Assembly (NCBI RefSeq): GCF_021497965.1
Contig: NZ_CP046525.1
Location: forward strand, 620,001 to 684,000
Direction of reading: 5' to 3'
DNA: 64,000 bases
DNA from: Streptococcus infantis
GTDB taxonomy: Bacteria; Bacillota; Bacilli; Lactobacillales; Streptococcaceae
Within the stretch, counting starts at the first letter, position 1, and every line of letters starts with the position of its first letter. Position numbers and translations under genes: made by a program. Below are positions 56,649-63,778 of the stretch, in pieces. Below the pieces are notes generated by a model. The model had not been told where the DNA came from and searched no databases. It saw only the letters and a program-made list of their open reading frames with translations.

Positions 56649-57715
56649 AAAAGCTCTATTCATTTTTAGCAGGAATTCTTGCGATTATTCTCGTCTTGTG
56701 GGGAATTTCTTACCATCTTGATAGTAAAATCAATAGCCGTGATAGTCAAAAATTGGTTATCTACAACTGGGGAGACTATATCGACCCTGAACTTCTGGAA
56801 AAATTTACAGAAGAAACGGGAATCCAAGTTCAGTACGAAACCTTTGATTCTAACGAAGCCATGTACACGAAAATCAAGCAGGGTGGAACAACCTATGATA
56901 TTGCTATCCCGAGTGAGTACATGATTAACAAGATGAAGGACGAAGATCTTCTAGTGCCTCTGGATTATAGTAAGATTGAGGGAATTGAGAATATCGGTCC
57001 AGAGTTTCTCAACCAGTCTTTTGACCCAAACAACCAGTACTCAATCCCATACTTCTGGGGAACATTGGGAATTGTTTATAATGAAACCATGGTGGAAGAA
57101 GCGCCTGAACATTGGGATGACCTCTGGAAACCAGAATACAAGGATTCAATCATGCTCTTTGATGGGGCGCGTGAAGTGCTTGGGTTAGGTCTTAACTCAC
57201 TAGGCTATAGCCTCAACTCTAAAGATCCACAACAACTGTCACAAACGGTCGATAAACTTTATGAGCTAACTCCTAATATCAAGGCTATTGTAGCCGATGA
57301 GATGAAGGGTTACATGATTCAGAATAACGCTGCCATCGGTGTGACTTTCTCAGGGGAAGCTAGCCAGATGTTGGAAAAGAATCCTAACCTCAAATTCGTC
57401 GTACCTACAGAAGCAAGTAACCTCTGGTTTGACAATATGGTCATTCCTAAAACAGTTAAGAATCAGGATGCAGCTTATACCTTCATCAACTTCATGTTAA
57501 AACCTGAAAATGCTCTCAAGAATGCAGAGTATGTCGGCTATTCAACACCAAATACAGCTGCTAAGGAAATGCTCCCAGAGGAGACAAAAGAAGACAAGTC
57601 CTTCTATCCAGATGCAGATACTATGAAACACCTAGAAGTTTATGAGAAGTTTGACCATAAATGGACAGGAATCTACAGCGACCTCTTCCTACAGTTTAAG
57701 ATGTATCGGAAGTAG
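56645..57715 (+). CDS. potD: Polyamine-binding protein PotD
   Basis: A 356-residue solute-binding protein capturing spermidine/putrescine outside the membrane. LVIYNWGDYIDPELL opens the mature domain and YFWGTLGIVYN is a ligand-site segment. The N-terminal hydrophobic stretch (~5-21) has no lipobox Cys, so the protein is either anchored by this uncleaved helix or cleaved and released, rather than lipidated. It is the last gene of the operon, followed by a terminator. Confidence 0.94.
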   Translation: MKKLYSFLAGILAIILVLWGISYHLDSKINSRDSQKLVIYNWGDYIDPELLEKFTEETGIQVQYETFDSNEAMYTKIKQGGTTYDIAIPSEYMINKMKDEDLLVPLDYSKIEGIENIGPEFLNQSFDPNNQYSIPYFWGTLGIVYNETMVEEAPEHWDDLWKPEYKDSIMLFDGAREVLGLGLNSLGYSLNSKDPQQLSQTVDKLYELTPNIKAIVADEMKGYMIQNNAAIGVTFSGEASQMLEKNPNLKFVVPTEASNLWFDNMVIPKTVKNQDAAYTFINFMLKPENALKNAEYVGYSTPNTAAKEMLPEETKEDKSFYPDADTMKHLEVYEKFDHKWTGIYSDLFLQFKMYRK

Positions 57716-57726
57716 TGCTATAAAGT

Positions 57727-57757
57727 AAACGAATCAGCTAAGCTGGTTCGTTTTTTG
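57727..57757 (+). terminator. Terminator of the pot operon
   Basis: AAACGAATCAGC / GCTGGTTCGTTT (one G-T pair) with a three-base loop, then a T-run. Confidence 0.88.
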
Positions 57758-57861
57758 AGTAGAAAGTAATTTGTATAGTTGTTTATTTTTACTATCCTAT
57801 TTGCTTATTTTATAGCCTCGTAGTATACTAAGTTTATACGAATAGAAAGCGGTAACAAATC

Positions 57862-58124
57862 ATGAAAATGTCTACTTTTTTCAAAAAAGTTACTGGCCAA
57901 CCTTTTTGATTGTTAACGAAACAATTATACTATTCCATTTAAAGGATGGCTTGGATCGGCAATATCTAACAACGGATTCCATACATTTGGTGATAGGTTA
58001 CTTTATATTTGCAAATATTTTCATAGCTATCCTTAGTAATTCGAAAATTTGGAATAAAAGTTGGGATAAAAAGAAAAATGGCAGTAAGAAAAAATATATC
58101 CTAAAAAGTAATCTGAGATTGTAG
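57862..58124 (+). pseudogene. Frameshifted small membrane-protein remnant
   Basis: An ATG opens MKMSTFFKKVTGQPF and meets a TGA after a run of five T at 57903-57907. One extra T would join it to a downstream frame of 73 codons containing a hydrophobic segment (VIGYFIFANIFIAIL) and a basic tail. The ribosome site is weak. I do not recognise the family, and the fragment might be fortuitous; it is reported as a probable degraded gene. Confidence 0.4.
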
Positions 58125-58180
58125 GGAATGTTTTTTTAATAGAATATAATTTCCAGAAATTTTTGAAAAAAATTAATACC

Positions 58181-58209
58181 TTGACTGCTATTAAGGTCTT
58201 TTTTATAAT
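58181..58209 (+). promoter_or_regulatory. Promoter of the GIY-YIG/PASTA gene pair
   Basis: TTGACT and TATAAT with a 17-base spacer. ACCTT / AAGGT arms with a following T-run overlap it, giving a weak hairpin in the spacer. Confidence 0.82.
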
Positions 58210-58267
58210 AATATATGAGAGCGGAATTATGCATATACTCTCTATAAAAATTAAAGGGAAATGCAAT

Positions 58268-59173
58268 ATGGATAATAAGATATATTTGAAGGATATTTTC
58301 AGATTTAATGAGCTGTTATCGCAATTAGAGTACAAAGGTTGTCGTATTAAGTTGAGATTTAATAAGAATTGGGATGATTACAGTTTTGTTGAAGATTATA
58401 TCAGTGGATCTGAAGATTTTTTACCTTGGATTTTAAGTAATGGTTCAGATAGAAAAAGTCGAAATCGTAGAAATGAAATTCAGTTTCAATTTATAGAAGT
58501 AGAGTACCATAAATGGCTTTTTGTTGGTGCCTATCTTATAAAAGAAAAGAATAGTCAGATAAAGAAAGTGGCCTATGGGAACCATCATGTCAAGTTTGCT
58601 TTAGCTGAACGATTAAAAGAGTATGATAAGTTTATAGAAAAAGTTTTGGTCAATCATACCAACACAGGCCAATCATGGTTTTATGTCAATCCTAAAATAA
58701 TTGAATCAGTTGTAGTAGAATCTGTAAGCAGTATCTCCTATTTTAATCAAACATCTCAATTTCCAGGTTATGAAAATATCTCATTTTCTTACCAAGAATT
58801 AAAGAAAAATTGGGCAAATAGTTCTTGGCGACAATATCTTTCAGCTGTTTATGGTGTCTATGTTATTACTGATGCTAAGACAGGAAAGCTTTATGTTGGT
58901 TCTGCTTATGGAGATAATGGAGTTTATGGAAGATGGTCTACATACTTAAGTGAAGGTTATGATAAATCCGAAATGGAAGAAAATCGTTATCCAAATAAAA
59001 GATTGTATGAAATAGTCGAAAAATATGGAATAAGTTATATTAAAAAGTATTTCCAATATAGTTTATTAGAGATTTTTCCAAAGAATGAAGTTGGAAAACA
59101 AAAGGCACTCCAACGTGAACGATATTGGAAGAAAGTATTAAAATCTAAGGAACATGGTTATAATGCAAACTAG
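58268..59173 (+). CDS. GIY-YIG nuclease-domain protein with unidentified N-terminal domain
   Basis: A 301-residue soluble protein. The first ~185 residues form a domain I do not recognise ([30 protein letters not shown]). The C-terminal ~110 residues match a GIY-YIG endonuclease: G-V-Y at 196-198 in [15 protein letters not shown] at 209-211 in KLYVGSA, Arg in YGRWSTYL, a Glu/Trp motif ERYWKKVL and the final Asn in GYNAN. The catalytic positions appear intact. The start is this ATG because it lies ~50 bases after a strong promoter. It is AT-richer than its neighbours, and its stop overlaps the ribosome site of the next gene, so the two are coupled. The cellular target is unknown. Confidence 0.8.
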
Positions 59174-59181
59174 GAGGGAAT

Positions 59182-60387
59182 ATGAATAGTCTGAATGATT
59201 GGGAAAAAGCTCGTCGAGAAGAAGAATTGAATCAAGAGCTAAAAAGACAAAATAACTTGTTGGAACAGCAGAGATGGGAACAGCAGTTTTCTAACCAAAA
59301 GCAACAGGCAGCACTAGATGAACAAAATCGTCTTGCTAGAGAACAAAAAGAAACATTAAAAGAGAGAAATGAGTTAGAACGTCAGAGGCAATGGGATGAA
59401 GAATCTCGTCATCAAAGAGAAATAGAACTGCGTATAGAACAACAATATAAAGATAATATTTTTGATTTAAAAAAACTGTGGGCTAAAGCTGAATCAGAAG
59501 ACGAGAGAGGTAGGATACAGATACTTCTAGCAGAAGCAGAAACTGAATATGATGAGTATTTACTTGAGAAAGAGAGAGAACTAGAACGAAAACGTTTAGC
59601 TGCGGAGCAATTTCAATTAAAACAACAGGAAGAAATAGAACAGAATGAATTATTAGAGCGTCGTAGACAAAAAATAAGTAGAATAAAGTGGTTTTTCGGA
59701 ATAGCTATAAGCTTACTTTTATTAGCGATAATTGGAACTTTTCTCATAGGTATGAGCAAGTCTAAATCATCTTATACTCATAACAGTAATAATCATTTAA
59801 CTCAACCAACTACTTCAGAAACCTCGACTAGTTCAACAACCAAAAGTTCACCTAGTACTAGTAAATCTCAAGATAAACAAACTTCAACAACGTCTCCCAC
59901 TACTAGACCACAGGCTACAAGAGTATATATTGGAAACTTTATTGGCCGAAAATCAATAGATGTGGTTGCTGAGCTCAAGGAGAAAAAAGTTCCTGAAAAT
60001 CTCATTAAGATTGTAGAAGAAGAATCAAGTGAAACAGAGGCAGGTCTTGTTATAAAACAAAGTCTGCCAGAAGGAACCACTTATGATCTTAGTAAGGCGA
60101 CGGAGATTACTTTGACCATTGCCAAGAAGGTAACAAGCGTTCCTATGCCAAGTTATATTGGATCAAGCCTTGAATTTACCAAGAATAACTTGATTCAGAT
60201 AGTCGGTGTTAAAGAGGCAAATATTGAAGTGATAGAGGTCTCTACAGCACCAGAAGGGACTGTTGAGGATACTGTGGTTAGTCAAAGTCCAAAACCAGGT
60301 GAAGGTGTAGATTTGAACAATACACGAATTAAAATTTCAATATATAAGCCCAAAACTACTCAAACATCACAAGGCCGCTCTAGGTAA
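59182..60387 (+). CDS. Coiled-coil / transmembrane / PASTA-domain protein
   Basis: A 401-residue membrane protein. Residues 1-165 are almost entirely charged Glu/Gln/Arg heptads, a long cytoplasmic coiled coil. One membrane helix (~170-190, [20 protein letters not shown]) follows, then a Ser/Thr-rich linker (~195-245) and two PASTA-like domains (~248-320 and ~321-395), with the typical ends [10 protein letters not shown] and [16 protein letters not shown] domains bind peptidoglycan fragments or beta-lactams in StkP-type kinases; here no kinase is present. GGAGGG overlaps the upstream stop, so it is co-translated with the GIY-YIG protein. Function unknown; a cell-wall-sensing partner is an inference. 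Confidence 0.78.
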
Positions 60388-60430
60388 ATTAAGAGATTTA
60401 AAGCTAAATTTATGATTCATGGCATTTACC

Positions 60431-60459
60431 TTGACCCCAAGATAAAAAAACGGTATAAT
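60431..60459 (+). promoter_or_regulatory. Promoter of the alaS T-box transcript
   Basis: TTGACC and TATAAT with a 17-base spacer, five bases before T-box stem I. Confidence 0.85.
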
Positions 60460-60463
60460 AATA

Positions 60464-60648
60464 GAGTTGAGAATTGATTTTCTCCCCATCTTAGTTCAGA
60501 GAATTGGCGGTGCTGCGAGCCATCTAAGATAGAAAATCATGCTACTCGATTGTAACAATTGCATAAGAATCAAGAATGACAAGTTCATTGAATGAAGGTG
60601 GTACCGCGGTTTTTCGCCCTTCGTGATATGGATTTGTCTTTTATTTTT
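60464..60648 (+). ncRNA. T-box riboswitch, alanine-specific
   Basis: Stem I is evident: GAGT/ACTC at the base, then ATTTTCT/AGAAAAT, ATCTTAG/CTAAGAT and a distal GGC/GCC loop. The specifier-loop codon GCT (60541-60543) reads alanine. The T-box AGGTGGTACCGCGG (60596-60609) contains UGGU, complementary to the ACCA end of uncharged tRNA-Ala. A T-rich tract follows before the ribosome site. Uncharged tRNA-Ala should switch on the downstream LURP-one gene and alaS. Confidence 0.92.
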
Positions 60649-60658
60649 GGAGGTGCTT

Positions 60659-61144
60659 ATGAGAAGATTTCTTGTCAAACAAAAATTTCGCCTAGGTGGT
60701 GAACGCTTTGATATCAAGGATGAGTTAGGCAATGTCGCCTATCAGGTTGAAGGTTCTTTCTTTAAGATTCCAAAGACCTTTACCATCTATGATACAGTTG
60801 GTGAACAGGTCAGTGGAATTAGTAAAGAAATTCTTACCTTCATGCCACGTTTTGAGATTCAACTAAGTAATGGAGATAGTTTCTATATCCGAAAGAAGTT
60901 GACTTTCTTTAGAGATAAGTATGAATTTGACAACCTTGGTCTTCGTATCGAAGGAAATATTTGGGATTTGAATTTTAAACTCCTAGATGATCGTGATCAA
61001 GTGATTGCGGAGATTGCCAAGGAACTCTTCCATTTAACCTCTACCTATTCCGTAACAGTCTACGACGAATCTTATGCAGACCTAGTTATTTCCCTCTGCG
61101 TTGCTATCGACTATGTGGAAATGCTAGAAAGCCAATCTAATTAG
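60659..61144 (+). CDS. LURP-one-related (YxjI-type) protein
   Basis: A 161-residue cytoplasmic protein matching the LURP-one/YxjI family, a tubby-like beta-barrel fold of unknown function. Typical segments are FRLGGERFDIKDELGNVAYQ near the start and DRDQVIAEIAKE. GGAGGTG precedes the ATG. It is the first gene after the alanine T-box and precedes alaS by 15 bases, so it responds to alanine tRNA charging along with alaS. Confidence 0.85.
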   Translation: MRRFLVKQKFRLGGERFDIKDELGNVAYQVEGSFFKIPKTFTIYDTVGEQVSGISKEILTFMPRFEIQLSNGDSFYIRKKLTFFRDKYEFDNLGLRIEGNIWDLNFKLLDDRDQVIAEIAKELFHLTSTYSVTVYDESYADLVISLCVAIDYVEMLESQSN

Positions 61145-61159
61145 TAAAAAGGAGACATT

Positions 61160-63778
61160 ATGAAACAATTATCTAGTGCACAAGTCCGCCAAATGTGGCT
61201 TGATTTCTGGGCAAGTAAAGGCCACTCAGTAGAACCATCTGTTAGCTTGGTTCCAGTAAACGATCCAACACTTTTGTGGATCAACTCAGGGGTCGCAACC
61301 CTTAAGAAATACTTTGATGGAACTATCAAACCTGAAAATCCACGTATTACCAATGCGCAAAAAGCCATCCGTACCAATGATATCGAAAACGTAGGGAAGA
61401 CTGCTCGTCACCATACTATGTTTGAAATGTTGGGGAACTTCTCAATCGGTGATTACTTCCGTGATGAAGCCATTACTTGGGCATATGAGCTTTTGACAAG
61501 TCCTGAGTGGTTTGACTTCCCTAAAGACAAACTCTACATGACCTACTATCCAGATGATACAGATTCTTACAACCGCTGGATTGAAGTAGGAGTGGACCCA
61601 AGCCACTTGATCCCAATCGAAGACAACTTCTGGGAAATCGGTGCGGGACCTTCTGGACCTGATACAGAAATCTTCTTCGACCGTGGAGAAGCCTTTGACC
61701 CAGAAAATATCGGTATTCGCCTTCTTGCAGAAGATATTGAAAACGACCGTTATATCGAAATCTGGAACATCGTTTTATCACAATTTAACGCAGACCCTGC
61801 GGTACCTCGTAGCGAATACAAGGAATTGCCACACAAGAACATTGATACGGGCGCTGGTTTGGAGCGTTTGGTAGCAGTGATCCAAGGGGCGAAGACAAAC
61901 TTTGAAACAGACCTCTTCATGCCAATTATTCGTGAAGTGGAGAAGTTATCTGGTAAGGTCTACGACCAAGATGGCGACAACATGAGCTTCAAGGTTATTG
62001 CAGACCACATCCGTTCGCTTTCATTTGCGATTGGGGATGGTGCCCTTCCTGGAAATGAAGGTCGTGGTTATGTCCTTCGTCGTCTCCTCCGTCGTGCCTC
62101 TATGCATGGTCAAAAATTGGGAATCAACGAGCCTTTCCTTTACAAACTCGTTCCAACTGTTGGAAAAATCATGGAAAGCTACTACCCAGAAGTGCTTGAA
62201 AAACGCGACTTTATCGAAAAAATCGTCAAGAGCGAGGAAGAGTCATTTGCTCGTACACTTCACTCAGGTCAACACTTTGCAGAAACCATCGTAGCAGACT
62301 TGAAAGAAAAAGGTCAAACGGTTATCGCTGGTCAAGATGTCTTCAAACTCTATGATACATATGGATTCCCAGTAGAATTGACAGAAGAAATCGCAGAAGA
62401 AGCTGGAATGACTGTCGATCGTGAAGGCTTTGAAGCAGCCATGAAAGAACAACAAGAACGTGCGCGTGCGTCAGCTGTTAAAGGTGGCTCAATGGGTATG
62501 CAAAACGAAACCCTTCAAAACATCACTGTTGAGAGTGTCTTCAACTACAATGCTAGCCAATTGTCTTCTAAGTTAGTGGCTATCGTAGCGGATAATGCTG
62601 AAGTAGAAGCTGTATCAGAAGGGACTGCATCTCTTATCTTTGCAGAAACACCATTTTACGCTGAAATGGGTGGACAGGTTGCGGACCACGGTCAAATCTT
62701 GGATGCTGCAGGAAACGTCGTAGCGAATGTGACAGACGTTCAAAAGGCACCAAATGGACAAGCACTCCATACCGTTGAAGTTCTTGCACCACTTGCTTTG
62801 AACCAAGAATACACCTTGGCAATTGATACTAATCGTCGTCATCGTGTCATGAAGAACCACACAGCCACTCACTTGCTCCATGCAGCTCTTCATAATATCC
62901 TTGGCCACCATGCTACTCAAGCAGGATCTCTGAATGAAGTGGAATTCCTTCGCTTTGACTTCACCCACTTCCAAGCTGTGACTCCTGAAGAATTGCGCGC
63001 CATTGAGCAACAAGTCAATGAAAAGATTTGGGAAGCCATTGCAGTGGAAACTGTTGAGACAGACATTGACACCGCTAAAGAAATGGGAGCTATGGCCCTC
63101 TTTGGTGAGAAATACGGTAAAGAAGTCCGTGTTGTCACCATTGGTAATTACTCAGTTGAGCTCTGTGGTGGTACTCACGTAGGTAATACATCTGAAATTG
63201 GTCTCTTCAAGATTGTCAAAGAAGAAGGTATCGGATCAGGAACTCGTCGTATCTTGGCAGTAACTGGTAAGGAAGCCTTTGAAGCTTATCGTGACCAAGA
63301 AGATGCACTGAAAGCAGTCGCAGTAACCTTGAAAGCCCCTCAACTCAAGGAAGTTCCTCATAAGGTTGAAGGACTTCAAGAACAACTCCGTCAATTGCAA
63401 AAAGAAAATGCAGAATTGAAGGAAAAAGCGGCAGCAGCGGCAGCAGGCGATGTCTTCAAGAATGTTCAAGAAGCAAACGGCCACCGTTACATTGCCAGCC
63501 AAGTATCTGTTTCAGACGCGGGTGCCCTTCGTACCTTTGCGGATAACTGGAAACAAAAAGACTATTCGGATGTGCTTGTTCTTGTCGCAGCCATCGGTGA
63601 CAAGGTGAATGTCCTTGTAGCCAGCAAGACAAAAGAGGTCCATGCAGGTAATGTGATCAAAGAATTGGCTCCAATCGTTGATGGACGTGGTGGTGGTAAA
63701 CCAGACATGGCCATGGCAGGAGGAAGCAACCAAGCGAAAATCCAAGAATTGTTGGATGCGGTAGCAGGTAAATTATAA
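61160..63778 (+). CDS. alaS: Alanyl-tRNA synthetase
   Basis: An 872-residue class II synthetase that charges tRNA-Ala. The catalytic core contains [17 protein letters not shown] and GAGLERL; the editing domain contains HTATHLLH (zinc/editing His) and CGGTHV; the C-terminal coiled coil and C-Ala domain (GGGGKPDMA-like: [14 protein letters not shown]) end the protein. The length is standard. Regulation is by the T-box two genes upstream. AAAAGGAGAC precedes the ATG. Confidence 0.97.

Follow-up and report, generated by a model that had tools for sequence, protein, structure and literature searches.

A UzuA-family GIY-YIG nuclease gene coupled in Streptococcus to a kinase-less membrane protein with a StkP-derived ectodomain

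The stretch of DNA analyzed here (64,000 nucleotides, positions 620001-684000 of its 1.7-Mb contig; hereafter the window) carries two adjacent genes that encode a UzuA-family nuclease (gene 1) and a membrane protein (gene 2), preceded by potD and followed by a LURP-one-related gene and alaS (Table 1). The alaS T-box was recognized by eye, with no Rfam match in the region (57600-61200) attaining the gathering score, and potD and alaS, as well as gatB, uvrA, rlmB, xseA, and leuS below, are presumed identities taken from the translations. Gene 2 starts 8 nt past the end of gene 1, and its AGGAGG overlaps the gene 1 stop codon TAG (59171-59173), in agreement with the tight coupling described in a sequence-only reading of this DNA. 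A promoter-like site was also recovered where that reading placed a promoter ahead of the pair; a scan of the region gave 9 promoter-like sites compared to a mean of 11.9 after shuffling, so that only the quality of this one site is notable. The AT-richness of the pair was likewise borne out, the G+C content being 0.389 for the window but 0.304 in gene 1 and 0.361 in gene 2. The broken gene reported beside the pair corresponds to a short frame-broken ORF directly before the cassette (57862-58124), related to a longer, 83-residue ORF present in another genome (locus L312).

Table 1. Features of the two-gene locus, in window positions.
Feature	Position	Strand	Basis
Promoter-like site, sigma-70-type, TTGACT-17 nt-TATAAT	58181..58209	+	11/12 consensus positions
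Gene 1, UzuA-family nuclease, 301 aa	58268..59173	+	
AGGAGG, ribosome-site-like, for gene 2	59172..59177	+	read from sequence
Gene 2, 401-aa membrane protein, inner part rich in E/K/Q/R, outer part with PASTA	59182..60387	+	
Conserved 48-residue gene-2 family motif, residues 86-133	59437..59580	+	alignment
Membrane helix, residues 171-189	59692..59748	+	best 19-residue hydrophobic window
Two PASTA domains, residues 250-396, homologous to the C-terminal StkP ectodomain	59929..60369	+	above Pfam cut-off

Gene 1 matched the PADLOC profile PDLC03973 for UzuA almost over its full length (residues 11-301 to model positions 3-278 of 278; 3.8e-44) and, from residue 17 to 301, a PHROG without an assigned function (1.7e-33). 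The protein consists of a family-specific N-terminal domain (approximately residues 1-190) and a GIY-YIG domain (residues 195-301). The full-length match therefore contradicts the sequence-only reading, which had held the N-terminal domain to be unidentified and the nuclease to be unrecognized. The Pfam GIY-YIG model gave 22.5 bits for a cut-off of 22.6, and a profile of 64 homologues matched the catalytic domain of I-TevI (1LN0) at 1.9e-10. Two tyrosines, an arginine, a glutamate, and an asparagine serve as the catalytic residues of GIY-YIG nucleases, and Y198, Y209, R222, E284, and N299 of gene 1 were invariant in 64/64 aligned homologues and aligned with their I-TevI counterparts, including E284 with the glutamate that is alanine in entry 1MK0 and N299 with the closing asparagine, which upholds the earlier description of an apparently complete GIY-YIG domain. 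Gene 1 shares this domain and these residues with I-TevI but differs from it in N-terminal domain, context, and presumed role. An AlphaFold2 model reached a mean pLDDT of 91.7 and displayed a strand-rich N-terminal part. The dN/dS ratios of gene 1 were 0.04-0.12 in six of seven pairs, with synonymous sites saturated in the seventh and near saturation in two further pairs, indicating that the gene is under purifying selection. By family, gene 1 is thus assigned as a UzuA GIY-YIG nuclease and would be expected to cut DNA.

Gene 2 was confirmed by hydropathy and Pfam as a membrane protein with one helix and two PASTA domains, as first described, and the Pfam scan identified no Ser/Thr kinase domain in it. 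Glutamate, lysine, glutamine, and arginine make up 56-57% of the last 120 residues before the helix in two close relatives, and the last PASTA domain matched the StkP structure 5NOD at 3.8e-35. Gene 2 resembles the StkP/PknB kinases in its StkP-derived ectodomain and in the presumed topology with the N-terminus inside, but it lacks a kinase domain match and retains only the last PASTA repeats; the NF033483 model gave 41 bits versus a cut-off of 450. The 48-residue motif, which sits before the membrane helix, is common to a Streptococcus membrane protein family. Its profile matched 40/284 Streptococcus genomes at E 0.001, some of them weakly, and 22/395 genomes of an order-level sample, 12 of which were Streptococcus, while the ten matches from other genera were weak, the strongest reaching 1.3e-9 across 33 positions and the remaining nine no better than 2.7e-5. 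Ectodomains in the gene-2 family comprised PASTA, SH3_3, PASTA plus SH3_3, or none recognized; among seven pairs scanned, four carried PASTA and three SH3_3, one of the latter below the Pfam cut-off. Two of the five SH3_3 matches in all exceeded the Pfam cut-off (L012 and L014) and the other three fell below it and are tentative (L023, L162, and L169). Gene 2 dN/dS values of 0.22-0.29 in six pairs indicate that this gene is also under purifying selection. A phage origin of gene 2 was not supported: 50,697 phage records yielded no match at E 1e-5, and the motif pattern hit viral contigs 139 times with no hit confirmed. Weak Pfam, NCBIfam, and PHROG matches over the helix and the Ser/Thr-rich stretch of gene 2 were judged to reflect composition, and PADLOC matches to PD-T4-6 were taken as the shared tail of PASTA kinases.

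The source of the ectodomain was examined by comparing ten gene-2 proteins (only the later piece for G643) with 14 StkP proteins. The ectodomain of G062 showed 81% protein identity and 90% DNA identity (over 534 nt, up to the gene end) to the StkP of its own genome versus 29-41% in protein to other StkPs, and that of G093, a genome whose gene-2 relative stands without gene 1, was 75% (protein) and 86% (DNA) identical to its own StkP and 32-40% to the others. In a tree, each ectodomain group was placed beside the StkP of its lineage; the long G062 and G093 branches met, which touches deep placement only, the pairing of each with its own StkP having a support of 100/100. A single origin of the gene-2 ectodomains was rejected (AU p 7.5e-5), and together with the own-lineage pairing this indicates that the StkP ectodomain was captured, or later copied from StkP, at least three times. 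The window ectodomain was 86% identical to its own StkP and 89-91% to the StkP of three relatives, and in the potD-alaS group the StkP of a relative was often a better match than that of the same genome, a pattern that movement of the cassette between species would produce. That a membrane protein lacking a kinase repeatedly took up the StkP ectodomain is surprising even if the two genes have no joint mechanism, and bears on what PASTA domains recognize in each species.

At the potD-alaS site, the pair had been described as an accessory insertion, and empty sites in two relatives (G153 and G081) bore this out. The stretch is absent from both and the flanks align at 89-96%; the part missing in G081 (approximately 58157-60442) is the pair, which delimits a cassette of approximately 2.3 kb. 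A S. infantis strain carries a gene 1 that is 99% identical to that of the window. All four combinations of two nuclease types with two gene-2 types were present at this site: the window combines a type I nuclease with gene 2 alpha, G102 type II with alpha (95.9% DNA identity to the window in gene 2 and 55.1% in gene 1), G091 type II with beta (gene 1 89.9% to G102), and G610 type I with beta (gene 1 93.4% to the window and gene 2 91.1% to G091). Kinship in the shuffled pairs switches near the end of gene 1. The gap between potD and alaS (window 57720-60430; loci L310-L319) is itself an accessory hotspot. Ten relatives were examined for its content and potD was in reach in seven, which carried a gene of 249-277 residues (3/7; L310, L311, and L317), a membrane protein of 129-150 residues (2/7; L314 and L319), the 83-residue ORF of L312 (1/7), or no ORF of 60 residues (1/7).

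The gene 1 family was identified in 24/284 Streptococcus genomes and, at E 0.001, gene 1 matched 33/398 class-level genomes, ten of them long matches at 1e-43 or better (one with an internal stop) and most of the others short GIY-YIG matches. Among plasmid records, 379/72,556 had matches (23 at 80% coverage) and among phage records 3/50,697 (none at 80% coverage), and genome contigs held at least 537 gene 1 relatives among at least 595 pattern matches. The streptococcal genes formed two distant clades, both with pairs; monophyly of all 21 streptococcal rows was rejected (AU p 1.3e-6), for a group that was named after an earlier tree had been seen.

A gene-2 relative lay downstream on the same strand in 14/24 streptococcal gene 1 loci and in both gene 1 lineages, so that the coupling noted in the window extends across streptococci. 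Thirteen of these relatives bore the motif and the fourteenth (G643) is a motif-bearing gene 2 with an internal stop. Gene 2 was broken in G643, G350, and G054 (the motif piece of the last lying 491 nt away), gene 1 was broken in G618, and both genes were open in ten loci; the gap between the genes was 8-24 nt in ten of the 11 loci with an open gene 2 and 95 nt in one. Three further loci (G187, G018, and G632) kept an intact gene 1 with only a PASTA remnant of 56-58 residues. Neither gene 2 nor a remnant was matched in the last 7/24 loci, among which gene 1 was broken in G056 and G072 and a gene-2 relative occurred elsewhere in the genome in G119, G652, and G072. Gene 1 was consequently open without gene 2 in eight streptococcal loci (three with a remnant, five with none found). 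Pairs occupied five sites, i.e., potD-alaS and those adjoining gatB, uvrA, rlmB, and xseA, and at the latter four other genomes carried a gene-2 relative without gene 1. The tree of the gene-2 inner part was weak (2/13 branches starred) and did not separate gain from loss of gene 1 at these shared sites. The motif was found near gene 1 in 0/71 non-Streptococcus genome loci, drawn from the best 80 of the 537 relatives, and in 0/26 viral contigs. The earlier proposal of a two-gene system was thus supported in part: the coupling recurs across streptococci, but the independent occurrence of homologues, which that reading had named as refuting, was partly observed both for gene 1 without gene 2 and for gene 2 without gene 1. 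A membrane partner as a general feature of UzuA was rejected, a membrane protein being encoded directly downstream of gene 1 in 10/31 cases compared to 51/251 control pairs (Fisher p 0.16). As gene-2 relatives are kept alone in many genomes and the clearest capture besides that of G062 lies in a genome without gene 1 (G093), gene 2 probably has some role of its own.

Comparison with described systems placed the pair closest to Uzume and SNIPE in different respects. Gene 1 is a near full-length match to UzuA of Uzume (models PDLC03973 and PDLC03974), from which the locus differs by a membrane partner that was found only in Streptococcus. UzuA is listed among phage defenses (PMC13335696) and Uzume is placed under 'Unknown' in the table of a 2026 review. 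SNIPE (PD-lambda-1) is described as a membrane-bound GIY-YIG nuclease that cuts phage DNA at injection and spares the chromosome, that attacks host DNA once deprived of its membrane helix, and whose homologues have varied N-terminal adapter parts, some similar to FtsB or DivIVA (PMC13190303). The membrane-anchored DUF4041 protein of PMC9519451 fits the system later named SNIPE. The likeness to the pair lies in a GIY-YIG nuclease with its catalytic glutamate, a membrane helix, and variable adapters, some of which resemble host envelope or division proteins (PMC13190303), whereas SNIPE is one protein with DUF4041 and the pair consists of two genes with a PASTA or SH3 outer part. Membership of SNIPE was rejected, since neither protein contained DUF4041 in a Pfam scan at E up to 1 and PADLOC gave no match named PD-Lambda-1 for the pair. 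Searches of the open-access literature (i.e., outside subscription papers and preprints) returned no report joining a PASTA domain with GIY-YIG, Uzume with GIY-YIG, or PASTA with anti-phage defense and Streptococcus. To the extent of these searches, neither the gene combination nor the repeated capture from StkP nor the two-by-two shuffle has been described.

We tentatively propose, at somewhat below an even chance, that the pair is a mobile two-gene module directed against foreign DNA, in which a membrane partner with a StkP-derived ectodomain anchors a UzuA nuclease where the wall grows or controls it from there. The inner part of gene 2 would contact or control the nuclease and the outer part, derived from the host StkP, would bind cell-wall material. 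According to PMC12077195, StkP is located at the septum, pneumococcal wall synthesis is confined to mid-cell, and the StkP PASTA domains bind peptidoglycan; a protein with the same ectodomain would thus likely gather at mid-cell. The nuclease would be kept at the mid-cell wall-growth zone, away from or inactive on the chromosome, and its target would be DNA entering through the envelope, that of phages above all. By analogy with SNIPE, the two genes may represent a divided form of that system with a wall address. A more general form of the proposal, in which streptococci repeatedly build a UzuA adaptor from the StkP ectodomain or SH3, nascent peptidoglycan positions or switches the nuclease so that it cuts DNA entering at mid-cell, and both parts serve as exchangeable cartridges, is rather unlikely. 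If the pair works as proposed, Gram-positive cocci would have a split, exchangeable counterpart of SNIPE, self and non-self would be told apart by place in the cell, a defense gene would use a host cell-wall receptor as its address label, and Uzume would gain a concrete spatial hypothesis.

The free shuffling of both genes argues against a closely co-adapted contact and, with solo UzuA and solo gene 2, leaves room for two independent neighbors. UzuA would then act alone, as it does elsewhere, and gene 2 would belong to a streptococcal envelope family with its own task, the nuclease gene settling before gene-2 genes since these lie in accessory hotspots with good expression and frequent recombination. 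This explanation is possible, though well short of an even chance. It accommodates the UzuA loci without a partner outside Streptococcus, observed by eye and by the motif profile within the sample given above, the solo gene-2 relatives at the same four places as pairs, and the three loci that keep gene 1 with a mere remnant of gene 2. It accounts less readily for the order, strand, and tight spacing shared by pairs from two distant UzuA lineages and five sites, or for the presence or absence of both genes as one cassette in both potD-alaS empty-site comparisons.

The partner could alternatively restrain the nuclease until the wall is altered by a phage lysin, an antibiotic, or autolysis, whereupon the released enzyme would destroy the cell's own DNA in an abortive response. 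A captured StkP sensor ectodomain suits sensing better than mere anchoring and, according to PMC13190303, a membrane tether restrains the SNIPE nuclease, which has the same type of GIY-YIG domain. Gene 1 is nonetheless open without gene 2 in the eight streptococcal loci and outside the genus, and its persistence unpaired implies that it is not evidently toxic alone, making such a wall-damage switch improbable. A selfish, free-standing homing endonuclease with a passenger gene is very improbable: at E 0.001 the family profile matched no PDB sequences other than two I-TevI entries and gene 1 scored weakly with intron and homing endonuclease models, but NCBIfam TIGR01453 reached only 28.6 bits for a cut-off of 56.05, the UzuA-specific N-terminal part is conserved and makes up about two thirds of the protein, the insertion sites differ, and Rfam gave no match above a gathering score at 57600-61200, for introns or otherwise.

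Other contexts were observed for both gene families. Four plasmid UzuA loci were inspected, with AbiH and Fic within 6 kb of one, Shedu within 6 kb of another, and no gene named as defense at the other two. A protein of 102-122 residues (L186 5655-5963; also L020, L022, and L185) is encoded after UzuA near leuS in G109 and in G119 and at another place in G652, and the L186 protein, the sole one scanned, had no Pfam match. In L064 and L255, from Staphylococcus agnetis and a second genome belonging to its class, the gene 15 nt after UzuA encodes 315 residues, with a hydrophobic helix at the N-terminus. In G097, the gene-2-like protein at the uvrA site is preceded by an ATPase of the STAND type (PF01637, nSTAND1; L171 5213-7474), perhaps another effector ahead of this kind of membrane protein. 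In L169 and L170, a PGA_cap protein and a small membrane protein are neighbors of a gene-2 relative whose SH3_3 ectodomain is tentative.
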